In this document: positions 23,042 through 32,095 of the stretch, one piece after another
How the letters are laid out: every line of letters starts with the position of its first letter
How positions within the stretch are numbered: position 1 is the stretch's first letter
Source: Opitutia bacterium
GTDB taxonomy: Bacteria > Verrucomicrobiota > Verrucomicrobiia > Opitutales > UBA953
Length of the DNA: 53,417 bases
Assembly: GCA_947470855.1 (NCBI GenBank)
Contig: CANIUQ010000010.1
Coordinates: 1-53,417, forward strand
Reading direction: 5' to 3'
Made by a program: the position numbers and the translations under genes
Notes under the pieces: generated by a model
Told to the model about the DNA's origin: nothing
What the model saw: only the letters and a program-made list of their open reading frames with translations
Databases searched by the model: none

Positions 23042-23052
23042 ACTACGATTTT
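23031..23052. terminator. Hairpin holding both convergent stop codons
   Basis: ATCGTAGT (23031-23038) pairs with ACTACGAT (23042-23049) around the loop TAG, which is the plus-strand stop. The minus-strand stop (TAG) lies within the right arm. A run of four T residues follows on the plus strand. It may act as a compact terminator, chiefly for the plus-strand gene; the T run is short. Confidence 0.45.
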
Positions 23053-23612
23053 GGGGTAATAGGCGTAGGCGCGTTCGTATTATTTGAACCATTCGTAGGC
23101 TTCTTTTCGTTCTCTTTCTGAGCAGGCTTGGTTGAATTATCGTTACGCTTGGGGAGAGGCGCGATGGGTTCGTATACCTTCTCGGCATTCGCTTTGATGT
23201 CGGTTAATTTCTTTTCTGCCTCGGCGAGGCGTTTTTCAGTTTCTTTATTTTTTTCTGTTAAGTTAAGAACGCCACTTTGCGACTCGGCTAAACTGGATTT
23301 AAGTAAGCTATTTTCACTGATTAATGTGTCATGGAGTTGTTGGCTCGTCGTGATATTATCTTGGAGCGCTTTTTTCTCCGCCATTAAACCAGCCAGCTCC
23401 TTATTCGCTTCGGCTAGTGATTTTTCTAAAACGCGAATTTTACCTTTTTCATTATCGATGGATTTTCCGAGAGCTTCAATCTGTTGTTGCCCTAACTCAA
23501 TGGTTTCTTTGTCGCGCAGGATCTTCTTGGTGGTGAGGGCTGCGATAGCCGCTATAACGAAAAAGAGAACGAAAAAGAGGATAATCTTTTTTGAATTGGC
23601 GGAGTCAGACAT
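23043..23612 (-). CDS. Membrane-anchored coiled-coil protein
   Basis: A 189-residue protein with one N-terminal membrane helix (~10-27, IILFFVLFFVIAAIAALTT), a long coiled coil (~35-145, rich in E, K, L, Q with heptad spacing) and a Pro/Asn/Thr-rich tail (PAQKENEKKPTNGSNNTN). It is not similar to a family I can name. The architecture suggests an envelope spacer or scaffold. It lies 27 bp downstream of the Rrf2 regulator gene and is likely co-transcribed with it. Confidence 0.7.
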   Translation of the reverse strand: MSDSANSKKIILFFVLFFVIAAIAALTTKKILRDKETIELGQQQIEALGKSIDNEKGKIRVLEKSLAEANKELAGLMAEKKALQDNITTSQQLHDTLISENSLLKSSLAESQSGVLNLTEKNKETEKRLAEAEKKLTDIKANAEKVYEPIAPLPKRNDNSTKPAQKENEKKPTNGSNNTNAPTPITPKS

Positions 23613-24807: not shown

Positions 24808-25716
24808 TTAGGTGCTCTGCCCGAGAGGCGACCCCATGTGAGCGTAGAGTTCTTGGCCTGTTTCTCCGGCCTCCAGTAAATCTTCCGCGATTTTGATACG
24901 TCCTGGTTCGAATAAGGTGGCAATAAAGGATCCGCCAAAACGGAAATACCCTTTTTCATCTCCTTTGGCTACGGCCACACCTGGCTGATAAGTTTCTACG
25001 ATGCTACCGACATTGGTTGCGCCAATCGAAACCAAGGTCACTAAACCAAAAGATGAAGTGTTGATGCTAACACGTTGGCGTTTGTTCCGCCAAAGATAAC
25101 TCACGTTTCTTCGGAGAGCTAGGGGGTTGACGGAATAAAGCGAACCCGAGAGGGGTACGGGTGCTTGTGGTATTCCGCTGACGGGAAAATGAAATCGATG
25201 ATAATCAACAGGGCAAAGACGAGAACACACCAGTGAGCCTTGAGCATAGCGTTGGCCGAGTTCGCGATCGCCCACAAGAGTGGAAATGTCTAATCGTTGT
25301 CCCTTGGCGAAGACGCCATGGGTGGTTGCAACATTTTGAAAACCTAAATGTCGACCGTCTGCAGGAAGTATCGCGATGTTTTCGCGGTTATCAATGGGTC
25401 GAGCACTCGGTTTTAATTTCCGATAAAAGAATTCATTAAAATTTGCGTAGGACTTTAAATCAGGGTTCGCAAATTCTGCGATGTTGAGTCCGTACTTTAG
25501 CACAAAGGGTTCGATGCGTTTGCGACTCGAGGGTTGATCCATCGCGAATCCGTAAAGTTGGGAAAAGAAAGCTCTTTTCACCACGGCATGAAGGGCGATG
25601 GACCCTAGGGGGTTGCCGTAAATGCGCTTAAGCCAATTTTCTCCGTAGACCTGTTCGACCTCGGTTGCGCCGGTATGGCGATTTTTGACGATTATAGGGT
25701 CATTTGGATGCATCAT
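24808..25716 (-). CDS. psd: Phosphatidylserine decarboxylase (type II, Chlamydia-like)
   Basis: Converts phosphatidylserine to phosphatidylethanolamine at the membrane, using a pyruvoyl group made by self-cleavage. Family marks are FNEFFYRKLKP (~88), LPADGRHLG (~115), CPVDYHRFHFPVSG (~168, catalytic His) and the self-cleavage site FRFGGSFIATLF (~257), where GGS replaces the enterobacterial LGST. The long N-terminal part (IIVKNRHTGATEVEQVYGEN, LYGFAMDQPSSRK) and the 302-residue length match the Chlamydia/Clostridium type. Cleavage at Ser gives a small ~45-residue alpha chain. It diverges from the first ClpP-like gene with a 64-bp gap. Confidence 0.93.
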   Translation of the reverse strand: MMHPNDPIIVKNRHTGATEVEQVYGENWLKRIYGNPLGSIALHAVVKRAFFSQLYGFAMDQPSSRKRIEPFVLKYGLNIAEFANPDLKSYANFNEFFYRKLKPSARPIDNRENIAILPADGRHLGFQNVATTHGVFAKGQRLDISTLVGDRELGQRYAQGSLVCSRLCPVDYHRFHFPVSGIPQAPVPLSGSLYSVNPLALRRNVSYLWRNKRQRVSINTSSFGLVTLVSIGATNVGSIVETYQPGVAVAKGDEKGYFRFGGSFIATLFEPGRIKIAEDLLEAGETGQELYAHMGSPLGQST

Positions 25717-25780: not shown

Positions 25781-26974
25781 ATGTTGCGTCAGGTTTTACC
25801 CATTTGCCTTATGTTTAGCCTTCTTAAGGCAGGCCCCGTTTCTTGGGATAATCCAGGGCAGTCTCTGTCGTTTAAGAAAACTCCCGAGACCTTAAAAACC
25901 GAGGTGGAGGCTGAATTAATCCGAGCCAAACTTGATTTGGCTTCGGCCCAGCGGCATTGGCAGCAAATGGAACGCATTTTAGAAATTCGAAAATTAGAAG
26001 CCGAAGAGAAATTGCGAAAAGCAAAAGCAGAAGGGGCGATGATTAATCAGGATTTAGAGAATGCCGAATTGTCCTTAAAAGTAGCGATAGCTAATGCGCG
26101 GGCTAACGTTGCCTCGGCACAATTAAATCAGAAGCGACTAGAATTTGAGGCTGAGACAAAGTTGGCGCTAGCTCAGGCTGCGGTTACTTACGAAAAAATT
26201 GCACGTTTAGGTGAAATCGCAGATTTGCAAAAAAAGCGGAACCTGATTGCGATTAATAAACAAATTTCCTACCCCCTAGATCCAGTAGTGGATGGCGTAC
26301 TGCGTATCTCCGATCGGCGTATTTCATTCAATGGTGTCGTTAATGATGAGCTGGCTAAAGATGTTTGTGAGCGTATTGCGTTTTACAACGCGCTCGATTC
26401 CCAAGCCCCCATTTTTATTGTCATTGATCGTTCTCCTGGGGGCTCAGTGATGTCGGGTTATCAAATTCTTCAAGCGATGGAAGCTTCGCGTGCCCCCGTT
26501 TATGTTGTGGTTAAGGGTTACGCTGCCTCGATGGCTGCAATTATTACAACGTTGGCCAAGCGTTCCTATGTTTACCCACAAGCGATTGTTCTTCATCACC
26601 AGGCTTCGACCAGTTTAAGCGGTAATAACACGCAATTAGCGCAACAGCTGAAGTGGACTAAAGTTTGGTGTGATCGGATCTTTATTAAAGTCGCCGACAA
26701 GGTGGGGTTGACTCTGGATGAGTTTGTTTCGCGGATGTATGCAGCAACCGTGACGGGCGATTGGAAGGTCTTGGGTGACGAGGCTGTAAAATTAAAATGG
26801 GTCACTCACGTCGTCGAGCGGATGACGGAAGAGGGTGCCTCAACCATGCCCACAACTCCAGCCATTGAGAATGCCAACCTCAAAGTGGCAACTTCGCGTC
26901 AAGAATTACCACCGCTCAACCCTTTTGATGTTTGGTGGATCTATGATCCCACTACGGAATTTATTCTTCGATAA
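25781..26974 (+). CDS. Exported ClpP-fold serine protease-like protein with coiled coil (1)
   Basis: A 397-residue protein. Residues 1-17 look like a signal peptide (LPICLMFSLLKAG). Residues ~35-155 are a charged Ala/Glu/Lys-rich coiled coil. The C-terminal domain (~160-370) has the ClpP fold marks: DRSPGGSVMSGY, YAASMAA with Ser250, LHHQ with His273 and TGDW with Asp327, aligning with the ClpP triad Ser-His-Asp. GAGGG lies 8 bases before the ATG. The neighbouring gene is a paralogue. Family members normally work in the cytoplasm with AAA+ ATPases; none is here and the signal peptide suggests the periplasm, so the partner and substrate are unknown. Confidence 0.85.
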   Translation: MLRQVLPICLMFSLLKAGPVSWDNPGQSLSFKKTPETLKTEVEAELIRAKLDLASAQRHWQQMERILEIRKLEAEEKLRKAKAEGAMINQDLENAELSLKVAIANARANVASAQLNQKRLEFEAETKLALAQAAVTYEKIARLGEIADLQKKRNLIAINKQISYPLDPVVDGVLRISDRRISFNGVVNDELAKDVCERIAFYNALDSQAPIFIVIDRSPGGSVMSGYQILQAMEASRAPVYVVVKGYAASMAAIITTLAKRSYVYPQAIVLHHQASTSLSGNNTQLAQQLKWTKVWCDRIFIKVADKVGLTLDEFVSRMYAATVTGDWKVLGDEAVKLKWVTHVVERMTEEGASTMPTTPAIENANLKVATSRQELPPLNPFDVWWIYDPTTEFILR

Positions 26975-26991
26975 TTTATATAAAAAATCCT

Positions 26992-28323
26992 ATGCTATCC
27001 GTCCGTACACTTGTCAGTCTGATTTTATTCTCGAGTTCAATCTGCTTGGGGCAGGCTCAACAGGCACCCGCTCCTACTCAAGCGACGCCAACCCCTGGTC
27101 AGCCTTCATTGCCTACCACCATTCCGCCAGGCCCTCCCATTGTACGTGATGATCTGACCCCTGAACAAAAAGAAGTGATGAAGGAGGTTGATCGTTTGCG
27201 TGCTGAAAAGGCTTTATTGGATGCCAAAATTGCCCTGGCTGATGCGAAGCGAACGGAAGAACTGGTTCCAGTAAACTCAGAGGTTTTGCGCCTTAATTCC
27301 GAGCGAGCTTTGCGCATGGCTAAAGCGGCAGCTGAGGCAGCTGCTTTAGAAGATGAGCGAGTTCGATTAGAACGCCAGGCGTCTCTCGAAGCCGCGCGCG
27401 CTAACGCGCGTTTAGCAGAGAAAAATAATAAGATTAAAGAATTAGAAGCTGAGGCTAAGCAGTTGCAGTTGGAGTCGAGTAACACCGTCACCCGCTTAAA
27501 TAATGATATCAATCGTTTCCAAAAAGAAGAGGAGGCTCGTAAGATTGCAGCCAACGCTAAACCTCAGTATTTAAAAGATCCTTTAGTCAACGGGACTTTG
27601 ATTATCAGTGATCGTCGGATTCCTCTCAATGGTGCAATCACAGATCAATTGGCCGAGTTCGTTTGTCAGCGGATTAATTTTTATAACAATCAAAGTACGG
27701 AGTTCCCTATCTTTCTTGTGGTGGACAGCAGTCCTGGGGGTTCAGTTTCTGCAGGGTATCAGATTCAAAAAGCCATGGTCGCCTCCAAAGCCCCAGTCTA
27801 TGTCATTGTAAAGGCCTATGCCGCATCGATGACGGCGGTCATTGCGACTTTAGCGGAGCGCTCATTCTGTTACCCCAATTCAATTATTTTACATCACCAA
27901 GTTTCCAGTAACTTAAAGGGTAATATGACTGTTTTAAAAGAACAGATGGAGTTCACCACGATTTGGTTTGAGCGTATGGCAACGCCTGTAGCTAAGAAGA
28001 TGGGGATCACCTTGCAGGAGTTTGTGAAAAAAATGTACGAGAACGATTCAACCGGTGATTGGCAGGCTTTTGGTGAAAAGGCACAGCAATTGAAATGGAT
28101 TGATCAGGTCGTTGAGCGCATGGAAGAGACGGCAGTTCTAGATATTCTTTCCGCCCCTCCTGCACCCGCCGTCCTGCCAGCGCGAGCTGGACAAGAAGCA
28201 ACCTTTGGCATCAGCAGTCAGGTGGACGATAAAGGGCGAACCATCTTTACGCTTCCTGCTTTAGCGAATCCTTTTGATGCATGGTGGATTTATGATCCAC
28301 ATGGATTGTATCGCGCTCTATAA
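26992..28323 (+). CDS. Exported ClpP-fold serine protease-like protein with coiled coil (2)
   Basis: A 443-residue paralogue of the preceding gene, 17 bp downstream and clearly in one operon. A signal peptide (LVSLILFSSSICLGQAQ) is followed by a Pro/Thr-rich linker, a long coiled coil (~60-190) and the ClpP-like domain: DSSPGGSVSAGY, YAASMTA with Ser279, LHHQ with His302 and TGDW with Asp356. Both proteins end with a matching FDxWWIYDP motif near the C-terminus, which I know from no ClpP and may be a docking tail. The two may form a mixed ring as ClpP1P2 do; that is inference. Confidence 0.85.
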   Translation: MLSVRTLVSLILFSSSICLGQAQQAPAPTQATPTPGQPSLPTTIPPGPPIVRDDLTPEQKEVMKEVDRLRAEKALLDAKIALADAKRTEELVPVNSEVLRLNSERALRMAKAAAEAAALEDERVRLERQASLEAARANARLAEKNNKIKELEAEAKQLQLESSNTVTRLNNDINRFQKEEEARKIAANAKPQYLKDPLVNGTLIISDRRIPLNGAITDQLAEFVCQRINFYNNQSTEFPIFLVVDSSPGGSVSAGYQIQKAMVASKAPVYVIVKAYAASMTAVIATLAERSFCYPNSIILHHQVSSNLKGNMTVLKEQMEFTTIWFERMATPVAKKMGITLQEFVKKMYENDSTGDWQAFGEKAQQLKWIDQVVERMEETAVLDILSAPPAPAVLPARAGQEATFGISSQVDDKGRTIFTLPALANPFDAWWIYDPHGLYRAL

Positions 28324-28362: not shown

Positions 28363-30582
28363 TCATCGGCTGGCTGCGCCAGCCTTGGCTGCCTCGGATA
28401 ACTTGGCCCAGTCTGCCGCAATTCGAACCGATTCCATGAGTTGAATATCATAGTCGGGCCAATCTTCATCTTCGATGGGATCGCGAAGGCGTGAAGCTCT
28501 TTTAATCTTGGAAGTCTTATCTGCGTCCTCCGATTTTTCCTGTTCGATGGCGGCGTCTAATTTAACTTCGACAGTTTTGTATTTTTGAGCAGCAAGTTTA
28601 TCTAACTCTGAGTGAACTTGCTCGCGGAATGCTAAATCGTCGGCCCGTTCTTGACGACGTTGAGGTAAGGAGAGGGAAATTTCTTTGCGAACTTGCCGGC
28701 TTTTGGTCCATTCAATGGTGCGATTAAGCGTAAGGAACTCGGGCAATTCAGTTTGGCGTTTTTCGGAGGAAGCTTTTAGGATTTGGATTAAGTCGGGGGA
28801 AATTTTAAACGAAAGTGAATCATCGTCATCCGATTTCGGAAGAGAAGGGGGAATGGAGTCCCAGGCTAAAGGTCGATCGAGATCGGATTCGGCAACAGGT
28901 AGGACGGAGTAAACCGAGGGAACGATGATATCGGCAGGAACGCCTTTAAGTTGGATGGATGAACCGCTTGGTGCATACCACTTTTGGATAGTAATTTTAA
29001 CCGCGGACTTTGGGTCGAAGTCCTTAAAGGCTCTTTTGAGCTCGATGATATTTTGAACAGAACCTTTACCGTGGGTTGTGCTGTCGCCGACAATGACTGC
29101 GCGACGATGGTCTTTAAGTGCTCCACAAAAAATTTCCGAGGCTGAGGCGGAAAGTTTAGATGTTAAAACGATGAGAGGCCCATCCCAAGCTACTTTGGCA
29201 TTTTCATCACGATAGTCTTCGATTCGTCCCATGCTATCGCGCACCTGCAAAACGGAACCTTTTTTGATAAAGAGTCCTGAAAGTTCGATGGCTTCGGTGA
29301 GCAACCCGCCTCCATTTTTCCGCAAATCCATGACTAGAACTTTAATATTCAACTTCTTTAACTTACTAATGAGTTCTTCGACGTCTTTGGTTGGACTCGA
29401 TCCAGTGCCATCGGGGTTTTTGCCATAGAATGCAGGCAGTTCAATCACCCCCAAGTTAATGTTCCCTTGTTCCGAGGGAATTTTGATACAACGAGCGGAA
29501 GCCATCTGATTCACCAGTTTTATTTGATCGCGCGCAAGGTTGATGGTGTAGCGTCCACTGTTGTCAGCGGGGTCGATTAAGAGCCGAACAATCGTTCCTT
29601 GTTTTCCACGGATGCGTGAAATTGTTTTCGTTAGACGAAGGCCCACAATATCTTCCATCTCGCCTTTTTCACCCTGTCCAACGGCAATAATGCGATCGCC
29701 ACTTTTGACTTTTCCATTAAGCTCGAGTGGTCCGCCAGGCAGGATTTCCTTAACTGTGCAATAGCCCTCATCATCGGTTAGGGTTGCGCCAATGCCGCAG
29801 AGCATATTTCGCATGCCGATTTCAAATTCCTCCAGCGTACGTTGCGAAAAGAAAGTAGAATGGGGGTCGAACTGGGTGGAGAAAGCGGTGAGGAAGAACT
29901 CTTCGATTTCTTGTGGCTCGAAATCAAGGTAGGTGCGGGTTTTTTCGTAGCGCTTCTTTAATTTGGTTAGCGCTTCGGCCATTTTCTCTTCATTAATTTC
30001 TGGAACTTGGGTGTCGTGAACGGACGCATTTTTACCGTCTTTCTTTTTCTGCGTGGTTCGATCTTCTCCTAGAAGTTCCGACAGAATATCAAGACGGACA
30101 CGTCGACTCCAAAGGTCATCAGCCTCTTTGGTGTCTGCCGGCCAATTTCCTTTTTGGCGGTCCAAGGGGAAAGTGCCTGGTTGGTTAAGGTCGATTTTTT
30201 GATTGAGAGCTGCAATCGCTCCTTGCGTCCGTTCCGCGACATGCTCTTTGAACACGCTATAAATTTCAAACGCTGGGGTGAGGTTGCCTCGAACCAAATA
30301 TAAATCTAAACTTTTTCCATAACGGTTGATAAAACCATCAATTTCCGCTTGGGTAAAATAGAGTTTTGCAGGGTCGAGTGATTCACAGAAGGTCTTGATA
30401 ACTTCGTTCGCATCAATTTCGGCCAAAGTTTTTTTACTGATGTGATAACGTTCAATCAGCGCGACCGTGGCCCGAGCTTCGTTTTGCATGGCTGGGGTAG
30501 TGGCATAAACGCTTTCGGGTTTCGATTGGGCGTGGGCCAGGACTGCGGCCAAACCTAGGAAAGTAAAAATCCGTGAAATCAT
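28363..30582 (-). CDS. prc: Carboxy-terminal processing (tail-specific) protease
   Basis: A periplasmic S41 protease that degrades proteins from the C-terminus. A signal peptide (FTFLGLAAVLAHA) precedes the N-terminal Tsp domain, a PDZ domain (~245-330, GIGATLTDDEGYCTVKEILPG), and the peptidase domain with VMDLRKNGGG, the catalytic Ser region KLSASASEIF and the Lys in THGKGSVQ. A C-terminal DUF3340-like region (~590-739) is present. The length of 739 residues is usual for long Prc enzymes. It converges with the second ClpP-like gene and is followed upstream by rhomboid and clpP on the same strand. Confidence 0.94.
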   Translation of the reverse strand: MISRIFTFLGLAAVLAHAQSKPESVYATTPAMQNEARATVALIERYHISKKTLAEIDANEVIKTFCESLDPAKLYFTQAEIDGFINRYGKSLDLYLVRGNLTPAFEIYSVFKEHVAERTQGAIAALNQKIDLNQPGTFPLDRQKGNWPADTKEADDLWSRRVRLDILSELLGEDRTTQKKKDGKNASVHDTQVPEINEEKMAEALTKLKKRYEKTRTYLDFEPQEIEEFFLTAFSTQFDPHSTFFSQRTLEEFEIGMRNMLCGIGATLTDDEGYCTVKEILPGGPLELNGKVKSGDRIIAVGQGEKGEMEDIVGLRLTKTISRIRGKQGTIVRLLIDPADNSGRYTINLARDQIKLVNQMASARCIKIPSEQGNINLGVIELPAFYGKNPDGTGSSPTKDVEELISKLKKLNIKVLVMDLRKNGGGLLTEAIELSGLFIKKGSVLQVRDSMGRIEDYRDENAKVAWDGPLIVLTSKLSASASEIFCGALKDHRRAVIVGDSTTHGKGSVQNIIELKRAFKDFDPKSAVKITIQKWYAPSGSSIQLKGVPADIIVPSVYSVLPVAESDLDRPLAWDSIPPSLPKSDDDDSLSFKISPDLIQILKASSEKRQTELPEFLTLNRTIEWTKSRQVRKEISLSLPQRRQERADDLAFREQVHSELDKLAAQKYKTVEVKLDAAIEQEKSEDADKTSKIKRASRLRDPIEDEDWPDYDIQLMESVRIAADWAKLSEAAKAGAASR

Positions 30583-30592
30583 TATGGGAAGG

Positions 30593-31465
30593 TTAACGAA
30601 GGCGGTCGCTCAAGTGCCTCAATCTATCCTTCTCCTTTGGAGTGAGCGAGCCGAAACCCTCGGCAGAAATTTTATCTAATAGTTGGTCAAGTTCAGCTCT
30701 GGATTGAGAGGGGTTGAATTCGGAGAAGTTATTTTTAGTGCCAAAATTTGGGGAAATTTTATCTACCAGTCTAAGAGCGTCGCCCCGGAGACGATTTGTC
30801 TGTTGTCGATAAATCCACATCAGCCATCCAAACAAAAACCCGCCTAAATGAGCTGAATGTGCTACTCCGTCAAAAAACACGGGACGCCAAAACTGCCAGT
30901 TGTGGCGATCGGGCAACTCGTTGAATATCCAGCCTAGAAAACTGAAAGCAATCGAGACAATTAGCACCCATCGTGCACGAAAGGTTACGGGAATGATGAA
31001 AAAGATTAACAGGGTGATTCCCCGTTCTAACTGCTTTGCTAGTGCGACAAGCATCAGTGCGCAGACTCCGCCAGAGATACCTCCAAGAGAAAAGGTGGGC
31101 TCTGGATTACCGATGCCAGTTAGTCTCCAGATTAGAGCGCCGGTTAGAATCCCCCCGATTAAGGTAATCCAATAAATCGATTTACCTTCGGAGTCTTCAA
31201 CGTCTTTGCCCAGCCACCAAAGTGCGAGTCCATTGCCGATGATGTGCCAAAACTGTACGTGAATAAAACCATAGGTCAGCCATTGCCAGAAGCGGGGGTT
31301 GGACTCATCCAGCCTCATCCATCCTAGCCATTGGCTGTGGGTGGCGGCTTCGACTAAGCTGACAAAAAAGACAAAGAAAAGAACGGCGAGAGTGCAGTGC
31401 GTGCTTGAAGGCCAGCCACTTGAAGGTGGGCGACTCTGCATGTAGGCACGACTGCCAATGCCCAT
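30593..31465 (-). CDS. Rhomboid-family intramembrane serine protease
   Basis: A 290-residue membrane protease. The marks are WLTYGFIHVQFWHIIGNGLALW (~62-83, with conserved His), the active-site LGGISGGVCAL (~130, GxSG with catalytic Ser) and AHSAHLGGFLFGW (~206, catalytic His). Six to seven membrane spans are visible. A ~60-residue C-terminal cytoplasmic tail ends in helical charged sequence (LDQLLDKISAEGFG), common in bacterial rhomboids. It lies 10 bp upstream of prc and 12 bp downstream of clpP, so the three protease genes probably form one operon. Confidence 0.92.
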   Translation of the reverse strand: MGIGSRAYMQSRPPSSGWPSSTHCTLAVLFFVFFVSLVEAATHSQWLGWMRLDESNPRFWQWLTYGFIHVQFWHIIGNGLALWWLGKDVEDSEGKSIYWITLIGGILTGALIWRLTGIGNPEPTFSLGGISGGVCALMLVALAKQLERGITLLIFFIIPVTFRARWVLIVSIAFSFLGWIFNELPDRHNWQFWRPVFFDGVAHSAHLGGFLFGWLMWIYRQQTNRLRGDALRLVDKISPNFGTKNNFSEFNPSQSRAELDQLLDKISAEGFGSLTPKEKDRLRHLSDRLR

Positions 31466-31477
31466 TGGTTTCGTGGG

Positions 31478-32095
31478 TTAAAGTTTTTTCACAATCGCAT
31501 CCGCTAGACCGTACTCGATTGCCTCTTCAGCGGTGAGATAAAAATCTCGATCGGTATCATTAACAATCTTCTCTAGTTTTTGTCCCGAGGCTTTGGCGAG
31601 AATTTCATTCAGCTCAGCACGGAGGCGTTCCATTTCTAGGGCTTGGATGTGAATATCGACTGCAGGTGCTTGGATGCGCCCCATGATTAGTGGCTGGTGA
31701 ATCATCACGCGAGCGTGAGGGAAGACCAGACGGTTCCCCTTTTGTTTGGGGGCTTGCAGTAGAATGGAACCCATGGAGGCGGCCATGCCAGTGACGACTA
31801 CTTTGACGGGCGAACTGATGAGGCGAATGGTATCGTAGACCGCCATGCCTGCGGTAATGGATCCGCCAGGGGTATTGATATAAAAATGAATTTCTTTTCC
31901 AGGGTCGCTGCTTTCGAGGTAGAGCAATTTTTCCACGATATCTTTGGCCGAAGCATCGTCGACGGCACCCCAAAGAAAGATTTTCCGTTGTTCGAGAAAT
32001 TTCTTTTGGATGAGAAGTCCGCTGGGAGAGGGTTCTTTAGCAACCTCAGGGGTTTGTTCTTCTTCGTCGTCGTTCGCCATGGGAAAGATGAACAT
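31478..32095 (-). CDS. clpP: ATP-dependent Clp protease proteolytic subunit
   Basis: The cytoplasmic peptidase core that works with ClpX or ClpA. Visible are INTPGGSITAGMAVYDTI, the Ser site GMAASMGS, the His site MIHQPL and the Asp region DTDRDFYLTAEEAIEYGL. The N-terminus is longer and more acidic than in E. coli (ANDDEEEQTPEVAKEPS) and probably starts at an internal ATG (base 32080); the longer start is given. Neither clpX nor tig lies next to it, unlike the usual tig-clpP-clpX order. It heads the clpP-rhomboid-prc unit. Confidence 0.95.
   Translation of the reverse strand: MFIFPMANDDEEEQTPEVAKEPSPSGLLIQKKFLEQRKIFLWGAVDDASAKDIVEKLLYLESSDPGKEIHFYINTPGGSITAGMAVYDTIRLISSPVKVVVTGMAASMGSILLQAPKQKGNRLVFPHARVMIHQPLIMGRIQAPAVDIHIQALEMERLRAELNEILAKASGQKLEKIVNDTDRDFYLTAEEAIEYGLADAIVKKL

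Follow-up and report, generated by a model that had tools for sequence, protein, structure and literature searches.

A tandem pair of ClpP-fold proteins with export signals and long predicted helices in Verrucomicrobiota

ClpP is the textbook ATP-dependent chamber of the cytoplasm and a target for antibiotics and in cancer. How a protein of this kind might function beyond the membrane, where ATP is absent, is the question raised by two adjacent genes of a freshwater Verrucomicrobiota bacterium, whose products (i.e. P1 and P2) are ClpP-like and carry export-type N-termini. Both genes lie in a window of 53,417 nucleotides, this being the whole stretch of DNA that was analysed, and the coordinates assigned to them by a first-pass annotation were exact.

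25781-26974 (+): P1, predicted exported ClpP-like protein; open reading frame of 397 aa, PF00574 match with E=1.3e-20; helix at residues 35-156, ClpP domain at ~168-350, C-terminal tail NPFDVWWIYDPTTEFILR
26992-28323 (+): P2, predicted exported ClpP-like protein; open reading frame of 443 aa, PF00574 match with E=9.2e-20; helix at residues 57-184, ClpP domain at ~199-379, C-terminal tail NPFDAWWIYDPHGLYRAL
24808-25716 (-): phosphatidylserine decarboxylase-like gene, named from its sequence; divergent from the pair
28363-30582 (-): tail-specific protease (Tsp) of family S41, by profile match; convergent with the pair
31478-32095 (-): ordinary ClpP

The two forward-strand genes are separated by 17 bases and encode paralogues, which exhibit ~41-45% identity over most of their length. 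Genes around the pair encode the decarboxylase, Tsp, a rhomboid protein, ClpP and a transporter, with no capsid or packaging genes adjoining. At least two ordinary ClpPs are encoded by the genome, the second being on contig C9. The row of reverse-strand genes directly after the pair (28363-32095) comprises Tsp, the rhomboid gene, whose product has a DUF6576 tail, and the ordinary ClpP; protease genes of four kinds are packed into the 6.3 kb of the pair and this row, and in some relatives Tsp and rhomboid remain near the pair.

Family membership was examined by profile comparison. Scores for PF00574 (CLP_protease) were 74.5 bits for P1 and 71.7 bits for P2 against a cut-off of 20.2, whereas the NCBIfam ClpP equivalog (TIGR00493) gave 47.8 and 51.3 bits, far below its cut-off of 308.6; the window's ordinary ClpP likewise scored below that cut-off (196.2 bits). 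Profiles for the other ClpP-fold proteases all stayed under their cut-offs, with 17.4 and 27.1 bits against 40 for PF25145 (NfeD1b), 11.6 against 24.9 for P2 with PF01343 (SppA/S49), 22-26 against 155 for TIGR00706 (SppA) and 19.9 and 26.3 against 31.3 for PF01972 (SDH-type ClpP-like protease). The PF00574 match, the failure of the NCBIfam ClpP profile and the presence of ordinary ClpPs in the genome together point to a divergent branch of the ClpP family that exists beside, and not instead of, normal ClpP. The putative catalytic residues were then located by alignment.

26528-26530 (+): P1 Ser250, equivalent of the catalytic Ser by alignment; invariant
26597-26599 (+): P1 His273, equivalent of the catalytic His by alignment; invariant
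26759-26761 (+): P1 Asp327, equivalent of the catalytic Asp by alignment; invariant
27826-27828 (+): P2 Ser279, equivalent of the catalytic Ser; 148/148 homologues
27895-27897 (+): P2 His302, equivalent of the catalytic His; 148/148 homologues
28057-28059 (+): P2 Asp356, equivalent of the catalytic Asp; 148/148 homologues, aligned by hhalign to E. coli ClpP D185

The first-pass annotation had proposed these same triads and an SPGGS loop in each protein. Both triads align with that of ClpP, and the loop is found at residue 218 of P1 and residue 247 of P2. The catalytic His is the second of an HH pair and precedes a Gln, as in the HQP of ClpP. Conservation was assessed in 148 full-length homologues, for which a hydrophobic start was among the selection criteria (one that excluded few intact genes). 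The Ser, His and Asp of the triad and the two Gly of SPGGS were each present in 148/148, so that not one loss of the Ser was recorded, and the invariance of the triad and the oxyanion Gly-Gly extends down to ~33-35% identity.

Structure predictions for the single proteins, with family alignments as input, gave a ClpP fold for each (AF2 models mfff98cad6e7d for P1 and mabc2b8e7f75f for P2). In the P2 model the ClpP core has a pLDDT mostly >90, followed by a linker predicted with low confidence and then a small beta tail with a pLDDT of ~80-87; the P1 model resembles it. VIA-align returned Z scores of 24.3 for P1 with C. difficile ClpP1 and 23.1 for P2 with ClpP, supporting the ClpP placement originally made from motifs. 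The best Foldseek matches were to E. faecium ClpP (E 3e-14, TM 0.85 over the target). The predicted cores superpose on solved ClpPs with an rmsd as low as 1.5-2 A and, judged by this superposition of models, the geometry of the triad appears to be retained. Aligned ranges of the P2 model start at residue 179-207, opposite ClpP residues 3-30, which places the predicted end of the long helix near the start of the N-terminal axial segment of ClpP.

25883-26248 (+): P1 long helix, residues 35-156 (122 aa), predicted by AF2
27160-27543 (+): P2 long helix, residues 57-184 (128 aa), predicted by AF2; length by count

The ~120-residue coiled coil described in the first-pass annotation was upheld as a helix and not as a coiled coil. 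A single helix was confidently predicted in each protein, with a pLDDT mostly of 80-94 that drops at the ends (P2), and with a rise of 0.15 nm per residue its length would be ~18-19 nm. The helix segment measured 126-129 aa in 52/73 divergent homologues and occasionally stepped to ~160 or 111, whilst the linker preceding it ranged from 0 to 108 residues. These predictions support well a long rod of fixed length. The family hydrophobic profile of the helix had its best period at 3.56 residues, a peak that 39% of permutations attained, and there was little power at the heptad period of 3.5. Heptad periodicity was not significant, a classical coiled coil is not supported, and the helices may not bundle in the classical manner. 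In the A2 alignment the helix stretch L76-P197 occupies 121-122 residues in most rows, 155-156 in six and 101-105 in four, so that its length shifts stepwise, not gradually; a step of +33 would equal three hendecads.

25781-25831 (+): P1 signal sequence MLRQVLPICLMFSLLKA, identified by its hydrophobic core; cleavage site estimated
26992-27054 (+): P2 signal sequence MLSVRTLVSLILFSSSICLGQ, identified by its hydrophobic core and by homologues; cleavage site estimated

Export of both proteins, claimed at the outset, is supported by their N-termini. A hydrophobic N-terminal signal was present in all 148 homologues, in part as a result of their selection, and an A-x-A-like cleavage site in 138/148. 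The best 10-residue N-terminal hydropathy in the family had a median of 2.55 and a minimum of 1.7 (a minimum biased by start codons having been picked partly by hydropathy), as compared to a median of 0.36 and a maximum of 1.53 for 13 canonical ClpPs of the same loci. The P1 signal, with a Lys in its c-region, is among the weaker ones of the family; relatives of P1 show clearer ...AQ/Q cleavage sites, and typical family N-termini (e.g. MHLRTSLRVLALAVLTVAPVFAQQ and MPRLVLALFFLTAALPAQQ) have the form of a textbook signal peptide. Six second-gene homologues carry a lipobox (e.g. SLAALMFAGC) instead of an ordinary signal, an independent indication of export. No transmembrane segment was found in P1 or P2 besides the signal sequence. 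In the gut Opitutales (L102, L103, L108, L109, L110 and L098) the product of the second gene is a predicted lipoprotein and that of the first bears an ordinary signal peptide, so that the paralogues differ in anchoring.

28054-28056 (+): P2 Gly355, at the position of the oligomerization-sensor Arg (E. coli R184), by alignment to E. coli ClpP
28267-28320 (+): P2 aromatic C-terminal tail, residues 426-443, conserved in homologues

The proteins depart from ClpP at sites that may affect the mechanism. The sensor Arg position is Gly in 145/148 homologues; the canonical ClpPs of the same loci retain the Arg, with [TS]DRD in 13/13. This residue (E. coli R184; NmClpP R177) helps to lock the two rings of ClpP and to stabilise tetradecamers (PMC9035409), and its replacement suggests that double-ring assembly may differ or fail. 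Five residues are inserted shortly upstream of the catalytic Asp as compared to ClpP. The handle helix is retained in the AF2 model (P2 312-337), with its Q-x-T motif changed to N-x-T (N311 in 148/148, T in 141/148), a motif that varies among other ClpPs as well (PMC9035409). In an alignment to E. coli ClpP, the ClpX-cleft positions correspond to F241 (148/148), V243, V272, K274 (147/148), F/Y292 and Y294. The Lys in 147/148 stands at the position of M92, where ordinary ClpPs vary too, and this charged replacement may matter. The C-terminal motif reported at first was found as DVWWIYDP or DAWWIYDP; across the family the motif varies (WWIYDP / YFLYNPDxYYRxR), whilst the tail segment measures 22-27 residues (sd 0.6, 73 homologues). 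The longer C-terminus of Listeria ClpP2 can occupy the H site at which the ATPase docks (PMC9035409), and by analogy a tail that covers the protein's own cleft is a reasonable guess, no more.

The distribution of the family was examined at three levels. In the GTDB family of the window 71/79 genomes carry it, including 35/36 of the well-assembled ones, and in a Verrucomicrobiota sample it was detected in 33/388 genomes, other orders and classes included. A contig scan of 84,980 species was examined through the best 79 of 311 matches, every one of which was assigned to Verrucomicrobiota by record title or closeness in the tree; this is the evidence on other phyla, where weaker members are possible. 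Among the best 79 of 311 loci were freshwater Opitutae, Puniceicoccales of termite guts, Opitutales of ruminant and chicken guts (Candidatus Spyradosoma included), Opitutaceae, Verrucomicrobiaceae and the cultured Haloferula luteola; for some loci the gut host is presumed, in part from isolate names. Comparison of neighbouring genes revealed no ATPase or other partner gene recurring near family loci across lineages. A conserved partner was rejected as a candidate: neighbours were shared at lineage level only, and one neighbour group of 29 loci includes the family gene's own antisense reading. No defence-system match was obtained for the pair.

The tandem pair occurs in genera g1, g22, g23 and g213 and is kept in most of the GTDB family; in all cases in which the two copies were read, they adjoin, with the P1-type gene first. 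Genus g212 has a single copy, as do most lineages outside the GTDB family, including most family-bearing Opitutaceae and Verrucomicrobiaceae genomes. The pair is lacking in G009, G036, G457 and a few other genomes of g1, and its absence from G457 (91% complete) may be a real loss. In the tree, P1-type and P2-type genes form separate clades with SH-aLRT support of 99 and 94, respectively; the first genes of gut lineages branch immediately outside the P1-type clade and their second genes lie in the region of the tree occupied by the P2-type, with the rooting unsure because of the very long branch of the ClpP outgroup. The dN/dS of both genes against the nearest relative was ~0.04-0.05, a rough estimate given a dS of ~1.6-1.7, and on this sequence comparison the pair is under strong purifying selection. 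Such constraint, like the invariance of the triad, exceeds what chance would produce.

These findings are probably best explained by a homo- or hetero-oligomeric ring peptidase that is exported, has a genuine ClpP domain and acts independently of an ATPase, and the stalked, exported form of the pair suggests that it digests proteins or peptides outside the cytoplasm with no ATP-driven partner. Each protein would be exported by Sec and its signal cleaved, the second protein being lipid-anchored instead in gut relatives. The ClpP domains would most likely drive ring assembly outside the cytoplasm, with P1 and P2 probably sharing a ring in organisms that keep the pair. Independence from ATP is suggested because no AAA+ or other partner gene travels with the family and no ATP is available there; substrates would be peptides or already unfolded polypeptides. 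From each subunit the ~120-residue helix would emerge at the place of the axial-pore segment of ClpP, and above the pore the helices may build a rod or tube serving as a tether, spacer or entry filter. The aromatic tail, which is conserved, may lie over the docking cleft for ClpX.

Whether the two paralogues depend on each other is a narrower matter, a special case of the ring peptidase. As in the ClpP1P2 systems of Listeria and Mycobacterium, which are cytoplasmic, ATPase-dependent and devoid of stalk or signal, two ClpP paralogues possibly join one complex here. An obligate P1/P2 heteromer, built as two distinct rings or a single mixed one with neither subunit working alone, is a real possibility, although we consider the odds to be somewhat against it. 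It would fit the adjacent, constantly ordered pair of the four genera, the distinct paralogue clades and the different anchoring of the copies in gut lineages (first with an ordinary signal, second as a lipoprotein), but single copies occur in g212 and in most family-bearing Opitutaceae and Verrucomicrobiaceae genomes, and the triad is complete in both copies. Conserved pairing thus favours P1/P2 mixing, whilst the single-copy lineages show that family members need not come in pairs. A fuller version of the ring peptidase is held tentatively and appears rather doubtful, namely a self-sufficient extracytoplasmic machine in which a P1/P2 hetero-ring, an ~18 nm helical tube over the pore (as entry filter or to span the periplasm) and the tail in the ATPase cleft would together replace the unfoldase.

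SppA and NfeD1b are ClpP-fold proteases that work outside the cytoplasm without ATP and use a Ser-Lys dyad. The pair would share with SppA/SohB (S49) a ClpP-like fold, an exported or membrane-bound location and freedom from ATP, and with NfeD1b an extracytoplasmic ClpP-fold domain that needs no AAA+ ATPase. It differs in having Ser-His-Asp and no NfeD membrane/OB region. NfeD1b itself is a membrane NfeD protein with an N-terminal ClpP-like domain and an SPFH/stomatin partner (PMC2636767). P1 and P2 could accordingly be membrane-proximal processing proteases of the NfeD1b/SppA type, clipping signal peptides or membrane proteins or acting in regulation, with no closed degradation chamber and with the long helix organising the enzyme at the membrane in the manner of a stomatin/SPFH scaffold helix. 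We regard this as unlikely. Loss of the sensor Arg, lipoprotein variants that place some copies at the membrane and a weak resemblance, below threshold, to NfeD1b_N (27 bits) and SppA_dom (26 bits, against 155) would agree with it; however, the catalytic residues are Ser-His-Asp and not a Ser-Lys dyad, ClpP proper is the nearest fold and profile, the NfeD domain is below cut-off, P1 and P2 have no transmembrane segment past the signal sequence, and no neighbour such as an SPFH gene recurs across lineages (as judged by recurrence). A separate SppA is moreover present in 36/36 high-quality genomes of the GTDB family. Replacement of SppA was rejected on this count, and these cells already contain another ATP-free exported ClpP-fold peptidase.

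A structural role, in which exported rods would bear the ClpP fold as an end cap and keep catalytic residues for fold stability only, is highly improbable: helix length is strongly conserved, as such a role would have it, but so are the triad and oxyanion Gly-Gly, invariant down to ~33-35% identity, whereas pseudo-enzymes of the ClpP fold (e.g. plastid ClpR) have lost residues of the triad. Least credible of all is a failure of export, with an uncleaved N-terminal anchor and a cytoplasmic ClpP domain still served by ClpX, for which the weaker P1 signal with its c-region Lys might speak, but the signals of homologues are clearly of the type I or lipoprotein kind and positively charged at the N-terminus, a topology that would send the C-terminal part across the membrane, and the ClpX-cleft M92 position is that near-invariant Lys.

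Divergent ClpP-like domains also occur in phage head maturation proteases (PHROG 94 and 2976), whose profiles matched the pair at 1e-12 to 1e-20. The pair differs from these in being chromosomal and vertically kept, with no capsid genes adjoining and no full viral member. Among 2.9 million viral contigs of IMG/VR no full family member was detected and one partial match of 28% was obtained, and only canonical ClpPs were found in phages and plasmids; a viral origin was rejected on this evidence.

Novelty had been claimed for an ATP-free, exported version of ClpP. SppA and NfeD1b are already such enzymes, and the claim appears to hold in a narrower form, for a ClpP-proper domain with Ser-His-Asp and a helical rod. 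Relative to ClpP (PF00574, MEROPS S14), the pair keeps the fold, the Ser-His-Asp order, the SPGGS/AASM/HQ motifs, the handle helix and the G-x-x-T handle motif; it adds the export signal, the ~120-residue helix before the domain and the aromatic C-terminal tail, and differs in the Gly for the sensor Arg, the five-residue insertion near the catalytic Asp and the low TIGR00493 score. A phylum-wide family that combines a ClpP-proper domain and triad with an export signal, a rod of fixed length and a conserved C-terminal tail seems to be undescribed, and loss of the sensor Arg (Gly in 145/148) is also part of what is new; a literature search with little coverage of subscription journals found no description of the family. 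If the ring-peptidase reading is true, this natural, phylum-specific branch would reveal how gating and feeding of a ClpP chamber are possible with no unfoldase, having kept triad and fold in an ATP-free compartment, lost the sensor Arg and acquired a conserved tail and a long rod of constant length. The Verrucomicrobiota, much of which is uncultured, would gain an undescribed envelope protease, and the family is open to experiment since the cultured Haloferula luteola carries a member. A further possible envelope rod protein, which no test related to the pair, is encoded in the window at 23043-23612 (-); its 189 aa include a single hydrophobic segment near the N-terminus and an extended charged stretch that is probably helical.
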